A DNA stretch of 21,342 nucleotides from a virus. The DNA lies in IMG/VR virus record IMGVR_UViG_3300024273_000202, positions 1 through 21,342 of that record. The stretch is one strand, 5' to 3'. The translations under genes and the position numbers were made by a program. The notes beneath the pieces are model-generated. The model was not told where the DNA came from. It searched no databases and saw only the letters and a list, made by a program, of their open reading frames with translations. Numbering within the stretch: position 1 is the first letter of the stretch; every line of letters starts with the position of its first letter. Shown here in pieces: positions 8,982 to 21,342 of the stretch.

Positions 8982-9179
8982 ATGAATGAACAAGACTTTC
9001 CGAATGTAACTATTGCTTTTATTCAAGCTCTTGAAGATCGCTTTCCTGTTATTGATTTCCCGCCTACTGAAAGAATCAGTGAGCTTAATTATCACTACGG
9101 TCAGCGTTCTGTTATTAGTTTTCTTAAATCTCAGTACGAAATCCAGAACGAAAACGTTCTTAATACTAAACTAAAATAA
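8982..9179 (+). CDS. Small conserved-looking protein of unknown function (65 aa)
   Basis: I cannot name this protein. It is 65 residues, without membrane segments, with FPNVTIAFIQALEDRFP near the N-terminus and a GQRSVISFLKSQYEIQNE block near the C-terminus. Small proteins of this look recur at this place in marine T7-like phages, as far as I recall, but no function is known to me. It is one of the few genes here with a good ribosome site: AGGGG lies 8 bases upstream of the ATG. It begins 16 bases after the pyrophosphohydrolase stop. Confidence 0.6.
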   Translation: MNEQDFPNVTIAFIQALEDRFPVIDFPPTERISELNYHYGQRSVISFLKSQYEIQNENVLNTKLK

Positions 9180-9395: not shown

Positions 9396-11972
9396 ATGGC
9401 AGATAAGACTCTTACCGTAACGACCGTAGGTGGTGCAGATAAAACACTCACCTTCAATCGAGACCCCTTCGCTGGTGTTAGAACCATGACACGGGTAGAA
9501 GCGGGAGGAGGATCAACTGACATCTCAGTAGACAGAACAGTCTCTGGTTATAAAACTGGAGACAAAGCAGGACAGTCCCGCCCATTACTAAGTAAAGTAG
9601 TAGGCGGGGCTGCAGCCGCTTATAGCCTTCGTGACCTTAATGACGGTCAGGGGCTAAACAAGGTTGTCCGTGTTCGACGTGATTCAGACAATAACGAGAG
9701 AGACTTTAACGCCAAGGAGGTATCAAACGGTACACTCCAGAACTGGACGAATGCACAAGTAACACCGCCCCTTGACCTACGTGAGCTTACAGCTACGGGT
9801 CGTGACGGCCCTATCATTGAGGCAGCAGCGGCTTACTCCCTGCGTAACCTTAGTGACTCCTATGCGGGTAGCGTAGTCGATGTTCGTCGTAGCTCTGACG
9901 GCAACACGGAGACCTTTACGGCTGCTGAGGTTACTGATGGTACGCTGGTGGCTTGGGTGGGAGCAGGTAATAACGGAACGGTATCCAAATGGTACGACCA
10001 GAGTACAACCTCTGGTGTCCCTAATGCTCGCCACGCAACCAACTCAGACCCAGCAGAGCAACCTAGCATTGTTATTAACGGTGCTCTTTATAGCAACGGT
10101 ATTAGCATAGAGAGTAACCAACACCTCTGGTCACCCAGCAGCATTAACGTATCTTTAAATAACATTTCTGCGTTTGTTTACGGGGCAGCAAGTGGCGGTC
10201 AAGGTATAGGTGCTTTAACTAGTATTGTTAGCACAGGTACATTCTCCACTCCGTATAAGTATAATAGCACACAGGGATATAGGTATGGTGGCGAAGGAGC
10301 ATCATCGCAGCCAAACAGCGATGCACTACAGCTCTTTACGCTTATTGGTAGTCCCACTATTGCAGAGGGATTTTCAAACGGAACTTCATACAGAACATCT
10401 ACCGCCAGTACATCTAGTTATACTGGCAGAGACATTAAGATTGGGTCTTCTGCGAATAATTTAATTACAGGATCCGTACACGAAGTAATATACTACAACA
10501 CCGACCAGACAGACAACCGTACAGCCCTTGAGGCCAACATCGGTGAGGTCTACGGTATCTCTGGTATCCCTGCTTATGACAACACCGTCAACGGCTTCGT
10601 AGAGACTTGGTATGACCAGTCAGGTAACGGCAATAATGCTACTCAGGCGACTGCTAGTAATCAGCCTAAGATTGTTAATGCTGGTATGCTTGTCGCTCCA
10701 CGTCATCTGAGACATACTTCAACAGTAACACTTCCAGACGCTTCGCAAGGCACTCAAGCTGGTAAGGGCTTTACTATTACAGGTCTTACTTATGATGCCT
10801 CTGAAAACTGCTTTTGGGCTATTAACTTTGGGGACACCATTGAGCCAGTTAGTAGTACGTTATATCCCTCGGTTGTTAAGTTGAGTTTAAGTTTTAGCAT
10901 TATAAGCGAAATAGACCTCACTCCTTTTGTTTCTTCAAGCACGTCAGCTCAAGGGATTGCAGTAGATACATCTAACAATTCCTTATGGATTGGATTAGCT
11001 CCATCCACAAATGATGTTTTAAACATAAGCAAACAGGGTACTCTACTTAATACGGTATCCCTACCAGACTCCAATGGCTTAGCGTATGATCCCACTGATG
11101 ACACCTTGTGGACTATTGCTGTCTCACCTGCTCCTTTGAATCATTATAGCAAAACAGGCACTTTACTAGATAGTTACTCTGTTCCATTCAGCGGAGCAGA
11201 CCAATTAGCATATGATGCTGCAACCGATTCTATATGGTGTTCCAACGGTGGCAACGGCTCAATTGGTAACGTAAGCGTATTCCATAAGGACACAGAACAG
11301 TGGGATGACAGGATTCCATTAAGTGAAGATACGAAATCTATTGAAGGGATAGCTATTGTAGGGAGCAAATTGTTTGTAGGTAACGATGGTTACTTCCATA
11401 GTTCAGCATCTACAAATACAATCCAAACGTTCAACATAAGCAATGATGCGACAATAGATTTCAGTGCTGCCAATGTTCATCTTACAGTTGATACTTTATC
11501 AGAAGAGCTTACTGGAGCATCTACGGCAATCACCGTTTTGCGTTATCCTCTTACATCGACTCAAATTGCTTTCAGTGGAACTAGCTCTAATAGTCGAAGA
11601 ACAATCTTGCGCTCCTCTGGAAAATATGCCTTGTTTGCTGGCTTAGCAGCTACAACAGCACCTGGCATTGGGCAACCCAGCGAAGTCCCCTCATTAGCCT
11701 TTGGTACTTTTAGTGGCACTGGACTGGGAAGTCTATACGGAGATGGTGTGTTAAGAATAGACCAGCAACCCGTAGGGAGTTATAACCAAGCGGGTTTAAC
11801 AATAGGTCAAGATGATGACGGAAGCCCTACTTTTACTGGTCAATTTTACGAGTTACTTCTCTACAACTCCGACCAATCGGCCAACCGTCTTGCCATCGAA
11901 GACAACATTAACAATCAATACGGAATCTACACCCCTACAGTACCTGCTGGTCTAGTAGTTGTTAGACCTTAA
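9396..11972 (+). CDS. Large modular protein with two LamG/ConA-like domains and a nested beta-propeller (858 aa)
   Basis: This is a probable virion surface or adhesin-like protein. Residues 1-70 are a Thr/Gly-rich start. A 45-residue module (AAAAYSLRDL...) at 72-117 recurs at 143-187, where it leads into KWYDQS at 198-203 and a first LamG-like domain ending YYNTDQ...YGI near 366-392. A second domain opens at TWYDQSGNGNNATQ (404-417) and is interrupted near residue 434. It resumes with TIDFSAANVHLTVD near 686 and ends with LYNSDQSANR and YGIYTP. The interruption holds five propeller-like units beginning at residues 463, 520, 561, 603 and 651 (for example GLAYDPTDDTLW). WYDQSG/LamG modules are typical of carbohydrate-binding phage structural proteins. 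Carbohydrate or receptor binding is inferred. Its place before the portal gene is not the usual T7 fibre position. No Shine-Dalgarno site is present. Confidence 0.75.
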   Translation: MADKTLTVTTVGGADKTLTFNRDPFAGVRTMTRVEAGGGSTDISVDRTVSGYKTGDKAGQSRPLLSKVVGGAAAAYSLRDLNDGQGLNKVVRVRRDSDNNERDFNAKEVSNGTLQNWTNAQVTPPLDLRELTATGRDGPIIEAAAAYSLRNLSDSYAGSVVDVRRSSDGNTETFTAAEVTDGTLVAWVGAGNNGTVSKWYDQSTTSGVPNARHATNSDPAEQPSIVINGALYSNGISIESNQHLWSPSSINVSLNNISAFVYGAASGGQGIGALTSIVSTGTFSTPYKYNSTQGYRYGGEGASSQPNSDALQLFTLIGSPTIAEGFSNGTSYRTSTASTSSYTGRDIKIGSSANNLITGSVHEVIYYNTDQTDNRTALEANIGEVYGISGIPAYDNTVNGFVETWYDQSGNGNNATQATASNQPKIVNAGMLVAPRHLRHTSTVTLPDASQGTQAGKGFTITGLTYDASENCFWAINFGDTIEPVSSTLYPSVVKLSLSFSIISEIDLTPFVSSSTSAQGIAVDTSNNSLWIGLAPSTNDVLNISKQGTLLNTVSLPDSNGLAYDPTDDTLWTIAVSPAPLNHYSKTGTLLDSYSVPFSGADQLAYDAATDSIWCSNGGNGSIGNVSVFHKDTEQWDDRIPLSEDTKSIEGIAIVGSKLFVGNDGYFHSSASTNTIQTFNISNDATIDFSAANVHLTVDTLSEELTGASTAITVLRYPLTSTQIAFSGTSSNSRRTILRSSGKYALFAGLAATTAPGIGQPSEVPSLAFGTFSGTGLGSLYGDGVLRIDQQPVGSYNQAGLTIGQDDDGSPTFTGQFYELLLYNSDQSANRLAIEDNINNQYGIYTPTVPAGLVVVRP
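9609..9746 (+). repeat. First copy of the AAAAYSLR module in the LamG protein
   Basis: Residues 72-117 match residues 143-187 (bases 9822-9956) at AAAAYSLR[DN]L, the RR.SD.N basic strand and the E-V-x-[ND]-G-T-L-x2-W ending. The second copy leads directly into a complete LamG domain. This first copy is followed by an unrelated linker, so it looks like a leftover domain start. Confidence 0.75.
9822..9956 (+). repeat. Second copy of the AAAAYSLR module in the LamG protein
   Basis: This is the partner of the repeat at 9609-9746, displaced by 71 codons. It continues into GAGNNGTVSKWYDQS and the first full LamG-like domain, so it is the intact version of the module. Confidence 0.75.
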
Positions 11973-12783: not shown

Positions 12784-14319
12784 ATGCATAACGGAACAGC
12801 TCAGCAACTATATCACAAACTAGAAGGACAGCGGTGGAGTTATCTCGACCGAGCTAGACAGTGTTCTAAACTGACTATTCCTTATGTGATGCCCGACGAA
12901 GGCTTTAATAGCCACTCACGGCTCGAAACACCCTTTCAAGGCGTTGGGGCGCGTGGAGTAAATAACCTCGCATCTAAACTACTGTTGGCACTCTTACCCC
13001 CCAACGCCCCCTTCTTTCGTCTTAATATAGACAAGTACAAACTACAAGCTGAAGGCTCACCAGATGAAGTAATCAGTGGTATCGAGACTGCTCTCCAACA
13101 AGTCGAAGAGGCTGTGATGGATGAGGTCAGTCGAGAGAGTTATCGCGTAGCTCTTCATGAAGCGCTCAAGCATCTTATCATTGCAGGCAATGCTCTGGTA
13201 TACCTACCTGACGAAGGCGGTATGCGCATCTTCCACCTTGATCGTTATGTTGTAGAGCGTGACCCTATGGGTAACATTCTCTATGTAGCTACAAAGGAAA
13301 CAATTTCCTATGCTGCTTTATCAGAAGAGATGAGAGCGGTTGTCGGTGCTTCGGGTGAATCTCCTAATGATGACCTGCATGTCTACACGGCTGTGTGTCG
13401 TAAAGAAAATGGATGGCGTGTCTACCAAGATATTAACGGTGAGTTAATCCCTTCCTCGGAAGGCTTCTACGCTTTAGATAAGAATCCTTTTATCCCTTTA
13501 CGTTTCTCCCGTGTTGACGGTGAGAGCTATGGTCGAGGATATGTCGAAGAGTATCTAGGAGATATGCAGTCGCTTGAGAAACTTACACAAGCTATTGTTG
13601 AAGGGTCAGCTGCTGCGGCTAAGGTCTTGTTCCTTGTTAATCCTAATGGAACGACACGCGCAGCTACATTAGCTCAATCCCCTAATGGCGCTATCGCACA
13701 GGGAAATGCTCAGGATGTTTCAGTTCTGCAGCTCAACAAGTTTAATGACTTTCGTGTAGCTCAAGAAACGATTGCAACAATCAAAGACCGACTAGGTCAT
13801 GCTTTCCTTCTCACCTCTGGTGTCGTTCGTAATGCTGAACGAGTTACCGCTGAAGAGATCCGCATGCTTAGTATGGAACTTGAGACAGCCCTCGGTGGTT
13901 TGTATTCCCTCTTAAGTACCGAGCTTCAGCTTCCTATGGTTAACCGTATTATGACGGTTATGAACAAGCGTAAGGCACTACCTAAGCTTCCGAAAGATCT
14001 TATTAATCCTGTTATCATTACAGGTGTTGAGGCTCTTGGTCGCGGTAATGATCTACAAAAGCTGGACATGTTCCTTGCAGGAGCTAGTCAAGTCGTAGGG
14101 CCAGACGCCACAGCACAATTTGTAAACGTAGCTGAATACTTCTCACGCCGTGCTACAGCTTTGGGTATTAAGACCGCTGGGCTGATTAAGACACAAGAGG
14201 AGATTGAAGCAGAACAACAACAAGCTCAACAGATGCAGATGGTACAGAGCCTAGGGCCACAAGGAATTAAGGCTATCTCTGACCAACAACAAAACCAACC
14301 AACAGTAGAACAACAATAA
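12784..14319 (+). CDS. 8: Portal (head-tail connector) protein, T7 gp8-like
   Basis: This is the dodecameric portal that nucleates the prohead, docks the packaging motor and connects to the tail. It has 511 residues against 536 in T7. Matching blocks include RARQCSKLTIPY near 23-34, GVGARGVNNLASKLLLALLP at 53-72, EALKHLIIAGNALVYLP, DGESYGRGYVEEYLGD at 245-260, ERVTAEEIR at 352-360 and LGGLYSLLSTELQLP. The C-terminus is a Gln-rich tail, ending VEQQ, which is common in podovirus portals. The gene follows the 131-residue membrane protein by 5 bases, with the leader AAATAAATTTT and no Shine-Dalgarno site. The scaffold gene follows 14 bases downstream. Confidence 0.96.
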   Translation: MHNGTAQQLYHKLEGQRWSYLDRARQCSKLTIPYVMPDEGFNSHSRLETPFQGVGARGVNNLASKLLLALLPPNAPFFRLNIDKYKLQAEGSPDEVISGIETALQQVEEAVMDEVSRESYRVALHEALKHLIIAGNALVYLPDEGGMRIFHLDRYVVERDPMGNILYVATKETISYAALSEEMRAVVGASGESPNDDLHVYTAVCRKENGWRVYQDINGELIPSSEGFYALDKNPFIPLRFSRVDGESYGRGYVEEYLGDMQSLEKLTQAIVEGSAAAAKVLFLVNPNGTTRAATLAQSPNGAIAQGNAQDVSVLQLNKFNDFRVAQETIATIKDRLGHAFLLTSGVVRNAERVTAEEIRMLSMELETALGGLYSLLSTELQLPMVNRIMTVMNKRKALPKLPKDLINPVIITGVEALGRGNDLQKLDMFLAGASQVVGPDATAQFVNVAEYFSRRATALGIKTAGLIKTQEEIEAEQQQAQQMQMVQSLGPQGIKAISDQQQNQPTVEQQ

Positions 14320-16402: not shown

Positions 16403-16780
16403 ATGGCAGATTTCTCACTAAGCGGCACAAGTAATAACCCAAGCGACTGGCTAAACCCCTATAGTTACAATTCGACTTCGGATGGTGTAACCATTGATTT
16501 AACTTCTGTCCTATCTGATGTCGGTGTAACTGACGCCGACTTGGATGCCAGTACAGGCGATGTCCGTTCGGTTTACCTAGCCATAGCAGAAGCTCTTTAT
16601 AAAGCTTATGATGCTAAAGATGACGCAGCAGCTACAACTTCCAACCGTCTTAAAGTCACACGTAGTCGTGTTGTAGATGACACTAACAATATTCGTTATT
16701 CAACTTATACAATCCACATCCAAGAAGACGGCACAGCATCTAATGCTTCCTTTGTTTCTACTGGTGTACGTGGAGAGTAA
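16403..16780 (+). CDS. Protein of unknown function between capsid and tail genes (125 aa)
   Basis: I cannot assign a family. The 125 residues begin with a Ser/Asn/Tyr-rich segment (DFSLSGTSNNPSDWLNPYSY), continue with an acidic stretch VTDADLDASTGDVRSVYLAI that runs into a helix (AEALYKAYDAK), and end in beta-like strands (RYSTYTIHIQEDG) closing with STGVRGE. There is no signal peptide or membrane segment. Its place between the capsid terminator and the tail tubular A gene, where T7 has nothing comparable, suggests a minor virion or decoration protein, inferred from position only. It is separated from the capsid by a strong terminator, so it is either expressed by read-through or from its own promoter. 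No Shine-Dalgarno sequence is present. Confidence 0.6.
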   Translation: MADFSLSGTSNNPSDWLNPYSYNSTSDGVTIDLTSVLSDVGVTDADLDASTGDVRSVYLAIAEALYKAYDAKDDAAATTSNRLKVTRSRVVDDTNNIRYSTYTIHIQEDGTASNASFVSTGVRGE

Positions 16781-16802: not shown

Positions 16803-18800
16803 ATGCCTGACGTAAATACTGTAGAAACAGAACTTCTCGATGCTATTAATACTGGCTTAAGTAGTCTCGGTGAAACACCTGTAGACGCAGTAGATAGCAC
16901 ATCAACAAACGTTGTCCTAGCTAAACAGATTATTGAGGAAGTTAATAGAGATGTTCAAAGCAAAGGGTGGTGGTTTAATACAGGATTAACGGTTCCTACT
17001 GAAATAACTATTCTTTCTAACACTGGTACAGGAGCTAACGAGAATTTCAATAGTTTACTTCCAGAGGAAGCGCGCCGCTATATCGCTATCCGAGCTTCTC
17101 GTATTCTACAGTCTCGCTTTTTAGGCTCTGAGGATCTTTACAAGTTCTCAATGCTGGAAGAGCAGGTCAGCTATGCTGTATTGACTCAGGCTCATGTACG
17201 CAATGGAGGGGGAGCTACAAGTTTTACCTCCTTCCCAGCTGAGCTTAAAGGAATGGGGATTGAGGAGTTCATGTTCCTTCAAGGGAACGCCGAAGAAAAG
17301 CTCCTTACAATCCGTCTTACAACGGAGTTAAATACAGCTGCTAAGCTTGCTGCTGAGACAGCCCTTATTGGTTCCCAAGAAGAACTAGTAGACACACAGG
17401 TTTTTACTGAGGTTCAAACAGGAATTAAGACTGCCGCTGAGTCTGGTTTAATCACTGCTCAGCAAGCCCTAGTAAGCCAGCAGGTCTTAGAGGCTGTAGC
17501 TAATATCTCAAAGACAGGAGCTGAGACTCTTCTTATCGGTGAGCAAGCTGACCTTTTAACAAAGCAGGTAATAACAGAAGTTCAAAATACTATTAAGGTT
17601 TCCGCAGAGGCGGGACTGATTACCAGCCAACAGGCGCTTGTCAGTCAGCAAGTATTAGAGTCAGTATCCACAATAAACAAACAAACATCTGAAGCAGCGC
17701 TACTAGACGCTCAGGAACTACTCGTAGATGCTCAGAGCTTGGAGCTTACCACTAAAACAGCAGTTGAAATCGCAGTAGAGAAATCTTTCTACGACGGTGT
17801 TGTAGCTGGTACTCAAGATACCTACCGAGACTACGCTGCTGAGATGCGTATGATGGGAGTACAGGAATCTACTTTCCAACAGTTACTTGCTTATAAGAAA
17901 ATTGAAGTGCTGAAGGATGCTGCTAAACTACGGCTATCTACAGCAACAGAAGTAGCGACAGCTGCAGAACTTATTGAGGTAAACAAGATAATGCGTTTTA
18001 TAGGTGAGCCACCTGTAACCGCTGTTAACTCAAACTCTTTGACTTCTGAAACGGTACGCCTGCTACGAGACACATCGGAAGAACTACAAGGCCGTGGCTG
18101 GTGGTTCAACACTGAGAAAGACGTAGAGTTACCAGAAGTAACCGAGTTTGTTGTCTCTGGTGACGGAGGACAGTGGGATGGCATCTATGCATATAATGCC
18201 ACCAACGGGCGCTATGAGCGTACAAACGGTAACAACCTTCACTACTTTAGTAACACTGATACCAACGACACTAACACAGTTGGAACTTGGGTTCTAGCTT
18301 CTGAGCATCCAGCAGGAGTGTACGATGAAACATTTGATTCAAACGTAGGTACAGGAGCATACCCAGACCCTGCTTTGTTTGAGGTAGGCACTCTAGTAGT
18401 AGAACACAGGGTAGCAATTCCCGCAGATGTGATCTCAGTAGAGGCTAATGATTATGATACGATCATTAAAACAATTGGTGGTGTTCGTTATCTGTATGAC
18501 CTCAAAAAGAAATCCTATGAGCATTGGTTACCTGCACCTGTCAAGGCCACAGTTATATACAACCGAGATCTACTTGATCTCCCTCAGAAGTTCCTTGAGT
18601 ATCTAAACGTTCGTGTAGCTCTAATACTTACGGAGCTTTACCCACAGAGCGGTGCTGATCTACAGCGTCTCCCTAAGATGGAAGCAGAGCTGCGTGTTTA
18701 CTTTAAAGATCGTGACTTTGACAATGCTAATTATACAGTCTTTGATAACTACGACACAGCAACTCGTATTGGTATTAACCGTAACTACAATTTATTTTAA
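16803..18800 (+). CDS. 11: Enlarged tail tubular protein A with duplicated gp11-like domain and helical repeats (665 aa)
   Basis: This protein joins the portal to the tail nozzle. T7 gp11 has 196 residues; this one has 665. A first gp11-like region lies at about 8-135: LSSLGETPVDAV, SKGWWFNTG, then EEARRYIAIRASRILQSRFLG and a helix. A second, fuller one lies at about 389-665: ELIEVNKIMRFIGEPPV, GRGWWFNTE, then LPQKFLEYLNVRVALIL. Between them are five 28-residue repeats (182-321) of heptad-like character, flanked by related segments (MGIEEF at 151 and MGVQES at 351). The second copy ends FKDRDFDNANY...NRNYNLF. The extra material could form a second ring or an outward helical bundle; that is inference. 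It has no Shine-Dalgarno site and is followed 3 bases later by tail tubular B. Confidence 0.9.
   Translation: MPDVNTVETELLDAINTGLSSLGETPVDAVDSTSTNVVLAKQIIEEVNRDVQSKGWWFNTGLTVPTEITILSNTGTGANENFNSLLPEEARRYIAIRASRILQSRFLGSEDLYKFSMLEEQVSYAVLTQAHVRNGGGATSFTSFPAELKGMGIEEFMFLQGNAEEKLLTIRLTTELNTAAKLAAETALIGSQEELVDTQVFTEVQTGIKTAAESGLITAQQALVSQQVLEAVANISKTGAETLLIGEQADLLTKQVITEVQNTIKVSAEAGLITSQQALVSQQVLESVSTINKQTSEAALLDAQELLVDAQSLELTTKTAVEIAVEKSFYDGVVAGTQDTYRDYAAEMRMMGVQESTFQQLLAYKKIEVLKDAAKLRLSTATEVATAAELIEVNKIMRFIGEPPVTAVNSNSLTSETVRLLRDTSEELQGRGWWFNTEKDVELPEVTEFVVSGDGGQWDGIYAYNATNGRYERTNGNNLHYFSNTDTNDTNTVGTWVLASEHPAGVYDETFDSNVGTGAYPDPALFEVGTLVVEHRVAIPADVISVEANDYDTIIKTIGGVRYLYDLKKKSYEHWLPAPVKATVIYNRDLLDLPQKFLEYLNVRVALILTELYPQSGADLQRLPKMEAELRVYFKDRDFDNANYTVFDNYDTATRIGINRNYNLF
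17346..17765 (+). repeat. Five tandem 28-codon repeats inside tail tubular protein A
   Basis: Residues 182-209, 210-237, 238-265, 266-293 and 294-321 align without gaps. Shared positions are A-E at 3-4, L-[IL] at 7-8, Q at 11, L-[VL] at 14-15, Q at 18 and often K at 28. Repeats 1 and 3 resemble each other most, as do 2 and 4 (QQALVSQQVLE in both), so a 56-codon unit was probably duplicated. The length of 28 equals four heptads, and the alanine, leucine and glutamine content suits a coiled coil. Confidence 0.9.
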
Positions 18801-18803
18801 ACT

Positions 18804-21342
18804 ATGCCTTTAATTAATACTTCTGTTACCAACATGATTCAGGGTGTTTCCCAACAGCCTGACAGTGTTCGATTTGCTGGGCAATGCGACGAGCAGTTAA
18901 ATGCTTTAAGCTCTGTTGTGGACGGGTTAAAAAAGAGACCTAATACAAAACACGTTGTCCGTATGTTTGAGTCGGCCATTAGCGATAAGAGTTTTGTTCA
19001 TTTTATTAATCGAGATGATGAGGAGAAGTATGTACTAGTTTTAGATAAAGCGGTCAATAAACTTTTTGCCTTTAATACTATTACAGGAGTCCAATGTACT
19101 ATTAATGAAGCTGCATTTGCGAATATTCCTGCTGGGCATTATCTAAACTCAGCTTCCCCTGATCGTGATATAAAAGCACTTACGGTAGCTGATAACACTT
19201 TTTTATTAAACTCTACCGTTGAAGTTAAAGAAGATACCGCTCTCACACCACCCCTAGAGCGCGAGGCTATTGTATCAATCAATCAAGGCGACTATGCAAA
19301 AAGATATGAAATAGAAATAGGACGTAGTAATGAACCAAGCGTAATTAAATATTGGCAGCTTTACACTGACGGACGCGGTGGTTATATTGACTATGTTCAG
19401 ATTCTTGCTAGTGGTTATGGTATTCAATCATGGTCTTACAAGGGGGGACAAGAACAGGATTTAGGACTCGTCCCTACATTTGACTCTGAGGGTCGAATCG
19501 TAGCCGTTGCCAATACATTGCGGCATGTCACTTGGCCGATGTCAGCAATAACAGGAGGCACTGGACGTAAAGATGTGACCGTATATAAAGCAGGTATAAC
19601 TCCGATAGATGAATCATTCTATTCTAAAATGGTTGCGAAGACTGGAGCAGCTACTCAAGGAGGGGAAAATGCAGATACTAATGTAATTGCTCGGAATATA
19701 GTCAACCTTGCCAACGCTACTTCCTTAACCGTGGCTGGTGCAGACGGGTATGGTGGCAGCCTTAGTAAGGATTCGACCAGTAAACCAGCAGCTAACTTTG
19801 ATACTACCCATGTTGGACATGTTATCCGTTTTAAATGGAAGTCAGCCCTAAGCGCTAATTTAGAAGATTTTAACATTAGAACTTATGATCCTCTTGGAGG
19901 TAGCGGGATGACTTCCGCTTATAAAGCCGTAGACAGTATTTCTGCACTTCCTTTAATAGCTCCTGATGGTTTTAAAGTTAAAGTAGTAGGAGATGTTGAT
20001 ATTGATCAAGATGATTATTATGTAGAATTTTCCACTAAGGATGGATCAACCCTTGGAAACGGAACTTGGACGGAAACGGTAGGGCCTAACGTTCCTGTTG
20101 GACTTGATAATTCTACTATGCCTATGAGGTTTGTAAATACAGGGCTAAATGCTTTCTCTCTAGAAGAGGTTGTTACAGAAGTAAGGGAAGCAGGAGACTT
20201 AGATAGTAACCCCCCGCCTTCTTTTGTAGGAACGACGATTAATAACATAACCTTCTTTAAAAATCGATTAGGTTTCTTAACGGATGGCTCGGTAATCTTT
20301 TCTGAAGCTGGTAAGTTTTTTAATTTTTATCGAAAAACTGTGTCTTCTTTATTAGATTCCGCTCCTATTGACGTAAACGTATCAAGCACCCGTGTTACAA
20401 AGCTCACAGCTGCTGTAGGCTTCCAAGAGAATCTATTGATCTTTGGGGACAACGTTCAGTTTGTTATGAAGGGTGGGGATCTACTCACACCTCAAACAGT
20501 ATCTGTAAGCCCCGTTACTAACTTTAGTTTTGACACGCACGATACTCCCCTTGTGTTAGGTTCTTACGTTTACTTTCCTTTTAGTCGTGGATCTTACACA
20601 GGTATTCGTGAGTATACGGTCAACGCTAACACCGACACGTATGACTCAGCAGAAATTACTGAGCATGTTCCTGCATACATTCCTAGAGAACTTGTGTACA
20701 CAGCAGGTACTACAGCAGAGAATGCTTATGCTGTTGTCAGTCAAAACGAACGTAATGCTATTTATTTCTATAAATACTTCTGGGAGAATAACACAAAAGC
20801 ACTGAGCTCTTGGTCTAAGTTTACAGTAGATGGTGAAATAAGAGGTATTGAGTTCCTTGAGTCGCAACTTGTTATGGTAGTTGTAAGAGACTCTCAGACA
20901 CTGTTATTGACTATGAGTATTAATTCGGGGCAGACATCGGCTGACCCTTATCTGTCTAACACTGACACTGATTTTGAAAATTTACAGGTTCTTCTTGATA
21001 ATCGTATTGAAATGAGAAGAAACACTAACAATAGATTGGAGTGGTATAACGGATCAACATGGACTTCTAACTCAGCCAATCTTCCTTATGATATTGATGC
21101 TGCCGATATCGCGGATTACAAATTTGTGACCTCAACAGGGCAAGTACAAGCTGTAACCTATAGCGCTTATAGTGGCTTCTTTGGAACAGGTTCTACGCCT
21201 AGTTCGCCTGTATATGGTTATTTCGGTAGATTGTATAACATGAAGTACAAGTTTAGTACGCAGTTATTCAAAGCGGCGGCTGGTAAGAGTTCCTCACCGT
21301 CAGCTGCCTCTTCCCTTATTGTCCGTAATGGGGCTCGGAAGA
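18804..21342 (+). CDS. 12: Tail tubular protein B (tail nozzle), T7 gp12-like, cut by the window edge
   Basis: This protein forms the nozzle below the gp11 ring and helps hold the fibres. The frame is open from the ATG at 18804 to the right edge, giving 846 residues with no stop (T7 gp12: 794 in total). The N-terminus has the family signature: NMIQGVSQQPDSVRF, then DEQLNALSSVVDGLKKRPNT. Later blocks include FFKNRLGFLTDGSVIFSEAG around residues 480-500 and FGDNVQFVMKGGDLLTPQTV, typical of the beta-propeller-like core. The last visible residues are Ser-rich (AAGKSSSPSAAS), so the stop should be close. It begins 3 bases after the tail tubular A stop, with no Shine-Dalgarno site. Partial at the 3' end. 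Confidence 0.93.
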   Translation, partial: MPLINTSVTNMIQGVSQQPDSVRFAGQCDEQLNALSSVVDGLKKRPNTKHVVRMFESAISDKSFVHFINRDDEEKYVLVLDKAVNKLFAFNTITGVQCTINEAAFANIPAGHYLNSASPDRDIKALTVADNTFLLNSTVEVKEDTALTPPLEREAIVSINQGDYAKRYEIEIGRSNEPSVIKYWQLYTDGRGGYIDYVQILASGYGIQSWSYKGGQEQDLGLVPTFDSEGRIVAVANTLRHVTWPMSAITGGTGRKDVTVYKAGITPIDESFYSKMVAKTGAATQGGENADTNVIARNIVNLANATSLTVAGADGYGGSLSKDSTSKPAANFDTTHVGHVIRFKWKSALSANLEDFNIRTYDPLGGSGMTSAYKAVDSISALPLIAPDGFKVKVVGDVDIDQDDYYVEFSTKDGSTLGNGTWTETVGPNVPVGLDNSTMPMRFVNTGLNAFSLEEVVTEVREAGDLDSNPPPSFVGTTINNITFFKNRLGFLTDGSVIFSEAGKFFNFYRKTVSSLLDSAPIDVNVSSTRVTKLTAAVGFQENLLIFGDNVQFVMKGGDLLTPQTVSVSPVTNFSFDTHDTPLVLGSYVYFPFSRGSYTGIREYTVNANTDTYDSAEITEHVPAYIPRELVYTAGTTAENAYAVVSQNERNAIYFYKYFWENNTKALSSWSKFTVDGEIRGIEFLESQLVMVVVRDSQTLLLTMSINSGQTSADPYLSNTDTDFENLQVLLDNRIEMRRNTNNRLEWYNGSTWTSNSANLPYDIDAADIADYKFVTSTGQVQAVTYSAYSGFFGTGSTPSSPVYGYFGRLYNMKYKFSTQLFKAAAGKSSSPSAASSLIVRNGARK

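Follow-up and report, generated by a model that had tools for sequence, protein, structure and literature searches.

A 665-amino-acid gene of a T7-type phage probably encodes a fused adaptor-tube-adaptor protein, in which the order from the head outward would be portal, a ring of A domains, a tube of 12 helices, a ring of B domains, and the gp12 nozzle. More generally, we lean toward the view that there is a marine T7-like lineage in which two rings are spaced by a fused N4-type tube, with a length set by heptads and tails of a few to about 100 nm. The parts of the protein and their homologies were read from the sequence, and from these we infer how they would be assembled.

The window, meaning here the whole 21,342-base IMG/VR record, carries the gene set of a T7-type phage, with an RNA polymerase, a single-stranded DNA-binding protein, an endonuclease, a primase-helicase, a DNA polymerase, and an exonuclease. 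Its structural genes encode a portal, a scaffold, a capsid protein, the 665-amino-acid protein, and a gp12 nozzle, the last of which is incomplete and runs past the window end at 21342. Among annotated phages, the nearest RNA polymerases were those of pelagiphages and marine Ayaqvirus, at about 35% identity. Taken whole, the 665-amino-acid protein matched PF17212 (E=6.5e-39) and phrog_446 (E=9e-51) and could be annotated as a tail tubular protein A. The features discussed below are as follows.

12784 to 14319, plus strand: portal protein (gp8-like), presumed partner; PF12236, E=2e-91
16803 to 18800, plus strand: 665-amino-acid adaptor-rod-adaptor open reading frame; open frame, no stops
16821 to 16997, plus strand: domain A, N-terminal gp11 bundle helices (amino acids 7 to 65); profile positions 6 to 65, 56 bits; PF17212 positions 1 to 51
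17058 to 17204, plus strand: domain A, C-terminal gp11 bundle helices (amino acids 86 to 134); profile positions 127 to 175, 43 bits
17223 to 17312, plus strand: motif M1 (amino acids 141 to 170, MGIEEF), start of the rod; conserved, hhalign to M2 P=1.5e-4
17301 to 17783, plus strand: heptad rod (amino acids 167 to 327, 161 residues, 23 heptads), tail-tube-like; single heptad phase
17823 to 17942, plus strand: motif M2 (amino acids 341 to 380, MGVQES), helical collar before B; conserved
17946 to 18134, plus strand: domain B, N-terminal gp11 bundle helices (amino acids 382 to 444); profile positions 3 to 67, 42 bits
18135 to 18401, plus strand: domain B insert of about 89 amino acids (amino acids 445 to 533), predicted beta; foreign to gp11
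18402 to 18785, plus strand: domain B dock, C-terminal helices, and embracing-helix region (amino acids 534 to 661); profile positions 71 to 196, 44 bits
18804 to 21342, plus strand: nozzle protein (gp12-like), presumed partner of ring B; PF25675 Phage_nozzle, E=4e-169

Other features of the neighborhood were also seen. A 125-amino-acid open reading frame without a Pfam or PHROG match lies between the capsid and adaptor genes (16403 to 16780), and a similar-looking one of 148 amino acids holds the equivalent position in G021. Upstream of the portal gene, positions 9396 to 11972 encode an 858-amino-acid virion structural protein (phrog_10356) with a weak, subthreshold match to an arabinofuranosidase catalytic domain. 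Most gene starts in the window, including that at 16803, are preceded by AT-rich sequence with no clear Shine-Dalgarno motif, the exceptions being the starts near 8982, 14334, and 15250.

The protein is a member of a family. Relatives were encoded on 97 stretches in a first scan of IMG/VR, and this set was then extended by two profile scans. A search of phage proteomes for chains with two gp11 domains, as suggested in an earlier note on this DNA, was productive: IMG/VR held 40 distinct complete relatives of 464 to 1170 residues, all in the order A-linker/rod-B. None was found among 50,697 annotated phage records, in which no match covered 80% of the query and the single tail tubular protein A genes examined encode about 195 to 205 amino acids. 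GTDB contigs gave no relative, bacterial or prophage, and no second gp11 was found elsewhere in 22 contigs. Where the gene was incomplete, the contig was cut off, the copy was truncated or frameshifted (L253), or a one-base indel split domain A (L029 near 6250 and L032 near 6260). The latter two come from one metagenome and have their indels at nearly the same place, one with an extra base and the other with a missing base; these are probably sequencing errors. Two near-complete genomes, G017 (L070) and G021 (L079), of about 40.6 and 42.5 kb, have their assembly ends within the heptad array, and many further contigs also stop there, so that the gene is probably underassembled in metagenomes.

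The two halves of the window protein match each other (blastp E=2e-7), and each matches the Pfam family PF17212 (Tail tubular protein) when taken alone, with E=4.3e-23 for amino acids 1 to 166 and E=2.2e-16 for the last 293 amino acids. The earlier note had claimed two gp11-type domains in one chain, on the strength of a repeated pattern, and both the claim and the pattern proved real (LGETPV...GWWFNT at amino acids 22 to 60 and IGEPPV...GWWFNT at amino acids 400 to 437). Indeed, when the N-terminal half was examined for a gp11 match of its own, it scored better than the C-terminal half, and the claim of two gp11-type domains thus survives. A profile built from 10 canonical gp11 proteins, used to divide the protein, gave four matches, two in domain A (56 and 43 bits) and two in domain B (42 and 44 bits). 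The copies are not equal, although both are of gp11 type. Domain A (amino acids 7 to 134) lacks profile positions 66 to 126, and its domain map was the same in all 35 distinct relatives compared. T7 gp11 has been described as a helix bundle, a fiber dock, and an embracing helix (PMC6702177), and by that description the missing positions are the fiber dock. Domain B (amino acids 382 to 661), in contrast, is a complete gp11 with an insert of 89 amino acids. The embracing region lies, by sequence, at the C-terminal end of B, and in A its place is taken by M1 and the rod. The doubling of the domain contributes to the large size of the protein, but this is due mainly to the 161-residue rod and the insert in B.

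The fiber dock was absent from A in every full-length relative examined. In B, it was kept in 31 of the 40 complete relatives, including the window, and lost in 9 (L005, L011, L014, L018, L025, L026, L050, L052, and L061), in which the whole protein is then dockless. A search of 20 contigs, several of them fragments, for the T7-type fiber gene (PF03906) found it on 8, and it was still present on the contigs of L012, L014, and L015. The predicted structure of B matched T7 gp11 (7box_M) with E=5e-9 and a TM score of 0.70. The B insert matched nothing in Pfam or PHROG searches, and in relatives it is absent, different, or larger. Accessory segments of varied size and sequence were seen between helix 2 and the fiber dock of B in the window, L004, L013, L072, L199, and L205, and this site is a hot spot for added domains. 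The single gp11 of Ayaqvirus S45C18 (AP013544.1) ends in nearly the same sequence as the C terminus of B (FDNYDTATRIGINR; positions 18729 to 18797); outside this end, B is very divergent from the tail tubular protein A of that phage.

Between the two domains lies the heptad rod. Period-7 information, pooled over the family, was 0.85 bit per residue, versus at most 0.09 at spacings up to 35 that are not multiples of 7, and every member's array kept one heptad phase from end to end without a break. Measured with a uniform boundary, the rods were 27 to 637 residues long, with 32 of 35 lengths in a single class modulo 7. The rods are composed of A, L, T, Q, K, E, D, and V, and one heptad position is occupied about 96% of the time by Q, E, D, or N; there was no proline in the pooled segments and only 3 in the 8522 residues of whole rod cores. 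AF2 predicted amino acids 163 to 286 of the window protein as one long helix and M2 as helices at 341 to 351, 355 to 360, and 363 to 380, with pLDDT of about 85. The monomer prediction proposed in the earlier note gave a model of B that matches T7 gp11 but did not place A relative to B: pTM was 0.43 for the window protein and 0.46 for the short relative L049, values at which the A-B placement is not interpretable. The MGIEEF (amino acid 151) and MGVQES (amino acid 351) segments, which had been noticed as matching, are a true pair, but they mark the two rod ends and fall outside both gp11 domains. The gapless hhalign match between M1 and M2 covered 32 columns at 28% identity (P=1.5e-4), and by this sequence comparison the two motifs are homologous to each other. 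An internal start before B was considered and rejected, there being no Shine-Dalgarno-like signal at the conserved methionine of M2.

By its sequence, the rod shares its residue signature with the tail-tube helices of Schitoviridae. When the rod of L055, a relative, was searched against the 50,697 phage records, only 6 records gave matches. The three inspected were Vibrio BUCT194, Vibrio MS02, and Alteromonas PT15-A5, of which two are classified as Schitoviridae and the third shares their gene order; in all three, the matched gene was a structural phrog_2050 gene a short distance downstream of the capsid gene. In a phmmer search of the PDB with the same rod, the sole match below E=0.1 was 9bgm_a, the gp75 tail tube of the N4-like phage DEV (E=0.002), which is also assigned to phrog_2050. 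The DEV tube is a helical dodecamer of gp75, with a length of about 330 Å and a 36-Å bore, and gp75 is bound to the adaptor through its N-terminal part (PMC10925440). A composition-corrected heptad profile trained on rods alone gave the three tubes 61, 55, and 56 bits, with shuffled sequences near -70 (standard deviation, 10). With the window and its near relative L003 left out of the training, the window rod gave 55.5 versus -73.6 ± 10.5 for shuffles. These scores correspond to z values of about 12 to 13 for the three tubes and the held-out window rod, and 12 control proteins, including T4 fibritin, lambda Stf and tape measure, P22 needle, portal, and scaffold, did not exceed a z of 2.6. In a separate test of 282 open reading frames from other phage loci, scores were at most -58 except in the A-rod-B family and the tubes. 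The DEV fragment was weaker by this profile (-9.6 versus -77.6 ± 11.0). A gapped alignment of the BUCT194 tube with the L205 rod scored 93.6 bits, compared with maxima of 75.9 after shuffling within heptad positions and 44.7 after full shuffling, and the similarity of rod and tube therefore exceeds the heptad pattern itself. The phrog_2050 profile did not match the rods of the window, L055, or L205, and hhalign of M1 and M2 with the tube N termini, in search of the adaptor-contact domain of gp75, was not significant.

In the assembly that we propose, the 12-fold portal would carry twelve chains. Twelvefold symmetry is common to adaptor, portal, and N4-type tube, and the fused chain fits twelve copies for that reason, which is in part an inference. 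The A domains would form a ring sitting on the portal, the twelve rods would lie side by side to make a hollow helical tube like DEV gp75, and distally the B domains would make another adaptor ring, which receives the hexameric gp12 nozzle. The tube of DEV follows its adaptor from N to C terminus, and the same orientation here would put A on the portal side. With B distal and next to gp12 and the fibers, it is understandable that only B keeps the dock, and T7-type fibers would be held between the docks of B and gp12. In T7 (PMC6702177) and P-SCSP1u, the fiber is likewise flanked by the docks of adaptor and nozzle. The heptad count would set the length of the tube, at about 24 nm in the window protein and about 4 to 95 nm in the family as a whole if fully helical (1.485 Å per residue), and in-frame gain or loss of heptads would change the length with both rings undisturbed. 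The earlier note had suggested a connector with two layers, and two rings remain the expectation; since an uninterrupted heptad rod of tail-tube type joins the halves, rings spaced by a tube are the better reading than one thicker ring. Its other suggestion, pseudo-twofold subunits within one ring, is not supported, an unbroken rod of up to 637 residues being unfit for side-by-side domains.

Several observations argue against such a tube. The C-terminal embracing region of T7 gp11 grips the portal stem, and its retention by B is unexplained if B is distal. The asparagine that contacts the nozzle in P-SCSP1u is kept in A in 17 of 28 proteins versus 0 of 28 for B. The two negative comparisons given above, with the phrog_2050 profile and with the N-terminal domain of gp75, also count against it, as do a hydrophobic pattern in the rod that is not a classical a/d zipper and the tails of about 95 nm implied by the longest rods, which would be unusual for a T7-like phage. 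The AF2 monomer also leaves the placement of A and B to each other unfixed.

We regard it as unlikely that B alone forms a normal T7-type adaptor ring, with the rod pointing outward as neck whiskers and A at the tip. B does have all the canonical gp11 parts, including the embracing region and usually the fiber dock, and length variation is tolerated by fibers and whiskers. However, the rod is like tail-tube helices and not like T4 fibritin, lambda Stf, or P22 needle, A is a conserved portal-type helix bundle rather than a variable tip, and there would be no reason for a gp11 bundle at a tip. The embracing C terminus of B and the nozzle-contact asparagine of A would be better accommodated by a tube that runs from C to N terminus away from the head, with B on the portal and A at the nozzle, but this would be contrary to the direction of DEV gp75 and would put the fiber dock far from the gp12 dock in spite of the T7-type fiber genes, and we consider it improbable. 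We hold an equally low opinion of A and B lying in adjacent layers or alternating in one ring, with the rod as a loop or hairpin. Other phages do have two adjacent gp11 genes with no rod, and the shortest rods have only about 4 to 5 heptads, but rods of up to 637 residues show no turn, proline, or phase break, and odd and even heptad counts are both common where a symmetric hairpin should favor even ones. A hairpin rod was rejected on the absence of a turn, of parity, and of a phase shift. An assembly chimera or a frameshift joining two genes, which the split copies of L029 and L032 and the contigs ending within repeats might bring to mind, is already refuted by 40 distinct complete open reading frames of identical order from many metagenomes and by an identical protein on a second contig (L002).

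In a tree of 113 columns, the A domains formed one clade and the B domains another, and the fusion thus predates the divergence of the family. Two unrelated and otherwise ordinary T7-type contigs, L301 (3956 to 5277) and L303 (3812 to 5241), have two adjacent but separate gp11-like genes between the capsid and nozzle genes. The first tandem gene grouped with A (support, 97/91); the second fell near B with weak support (78/64) and long branches, and its grouping with B may be long-branch attraction. The cultured phages nearest the first tandem gene have one gp11 each and no second copy. A sister relation of A and B was not rejected (AU p=0.56 and 0.16), and an origin by internal duplication would be compatible with these values; the 113-column alignment does not decide between this and a fusion of paralogues. 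The tandem genes, the first of which groups with A, suggest, but do not prove, that paired adaptors preceded the fused protein.

All parts of the protein are of known kinds. Their combination, in which a single chain from a T7-type phage has two adaptor domains flanking an N4-type tube helix, had no counterpart in the annotated phages, the PDB, or the open literature searched; in open-access PMC text, we found no tail tubular protein described as having two gp11 domains or a heptad rod. T7-type tails are regarded as fixed short machines. If the proposed assembly is true, one gene fusion inserts a tail tube into such a machine, and tail length is tuned by heptad number with no tape-measure protein, predictable directly from the gene, and expressed as a visible and measurable change in virion shape. 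This would connect Autographiviridae-like and Schitoviridae phages through their tail modules, two architectures thought to be separate, and would offer one way in which a short tail could become a longer noncontractile one. T7-type genes in metagenomes would then be no guarantee of a podovirus morphotype. The "short-tailed" uncultured T7-like phages of this family probably build a length-adjustable tail tube.

Like T7 gp11 (PF17212, phrog_446), the 665-amino-acid protein lies between the capsid gene and gp12, both A and B match that family, and B has the bundle, the fiber dock, and the C-terminal region; T7 gp11, however, is one domain of about 196 amino acids, whereas here there are two domains per chain, a dockless A, and a heptad rod between them. 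The tandem genes of L301 and L303 show paralogues in the same order, as A and then B, and in the same capsid-nozzle interval, but as two open reading frames with no rod and with the beta region present between the helix pairs in both. The DEV adaptor gp83 has a lectin-like domain between helices 2 and 3, a position matching that of the B insert (PMC10925440), although the insert matches no Pfam or PHROG family. The Schitoviridae tubes (DEV gp75, Moo19 gp71, and B2 gp34; phrog_2050) have in common with the rod its heptad signature, direction, and uninterrupted phase. Their length also varies as that of the rod does, with 206 amino acids in B2 and 279 in Moo19 (PMC11654681), 321 in DEV, and 356 to 513 in BUCT194, MS02, and PT15-A5. 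The Schitoviridae tube is a separate protein, which docks on the adaptor and is closed off by a plug, whereas the rod described here is part of a longer chain, with an adaptor domain fused to either end, and belongs to a T7-type phage that has a gp12 nozzle.
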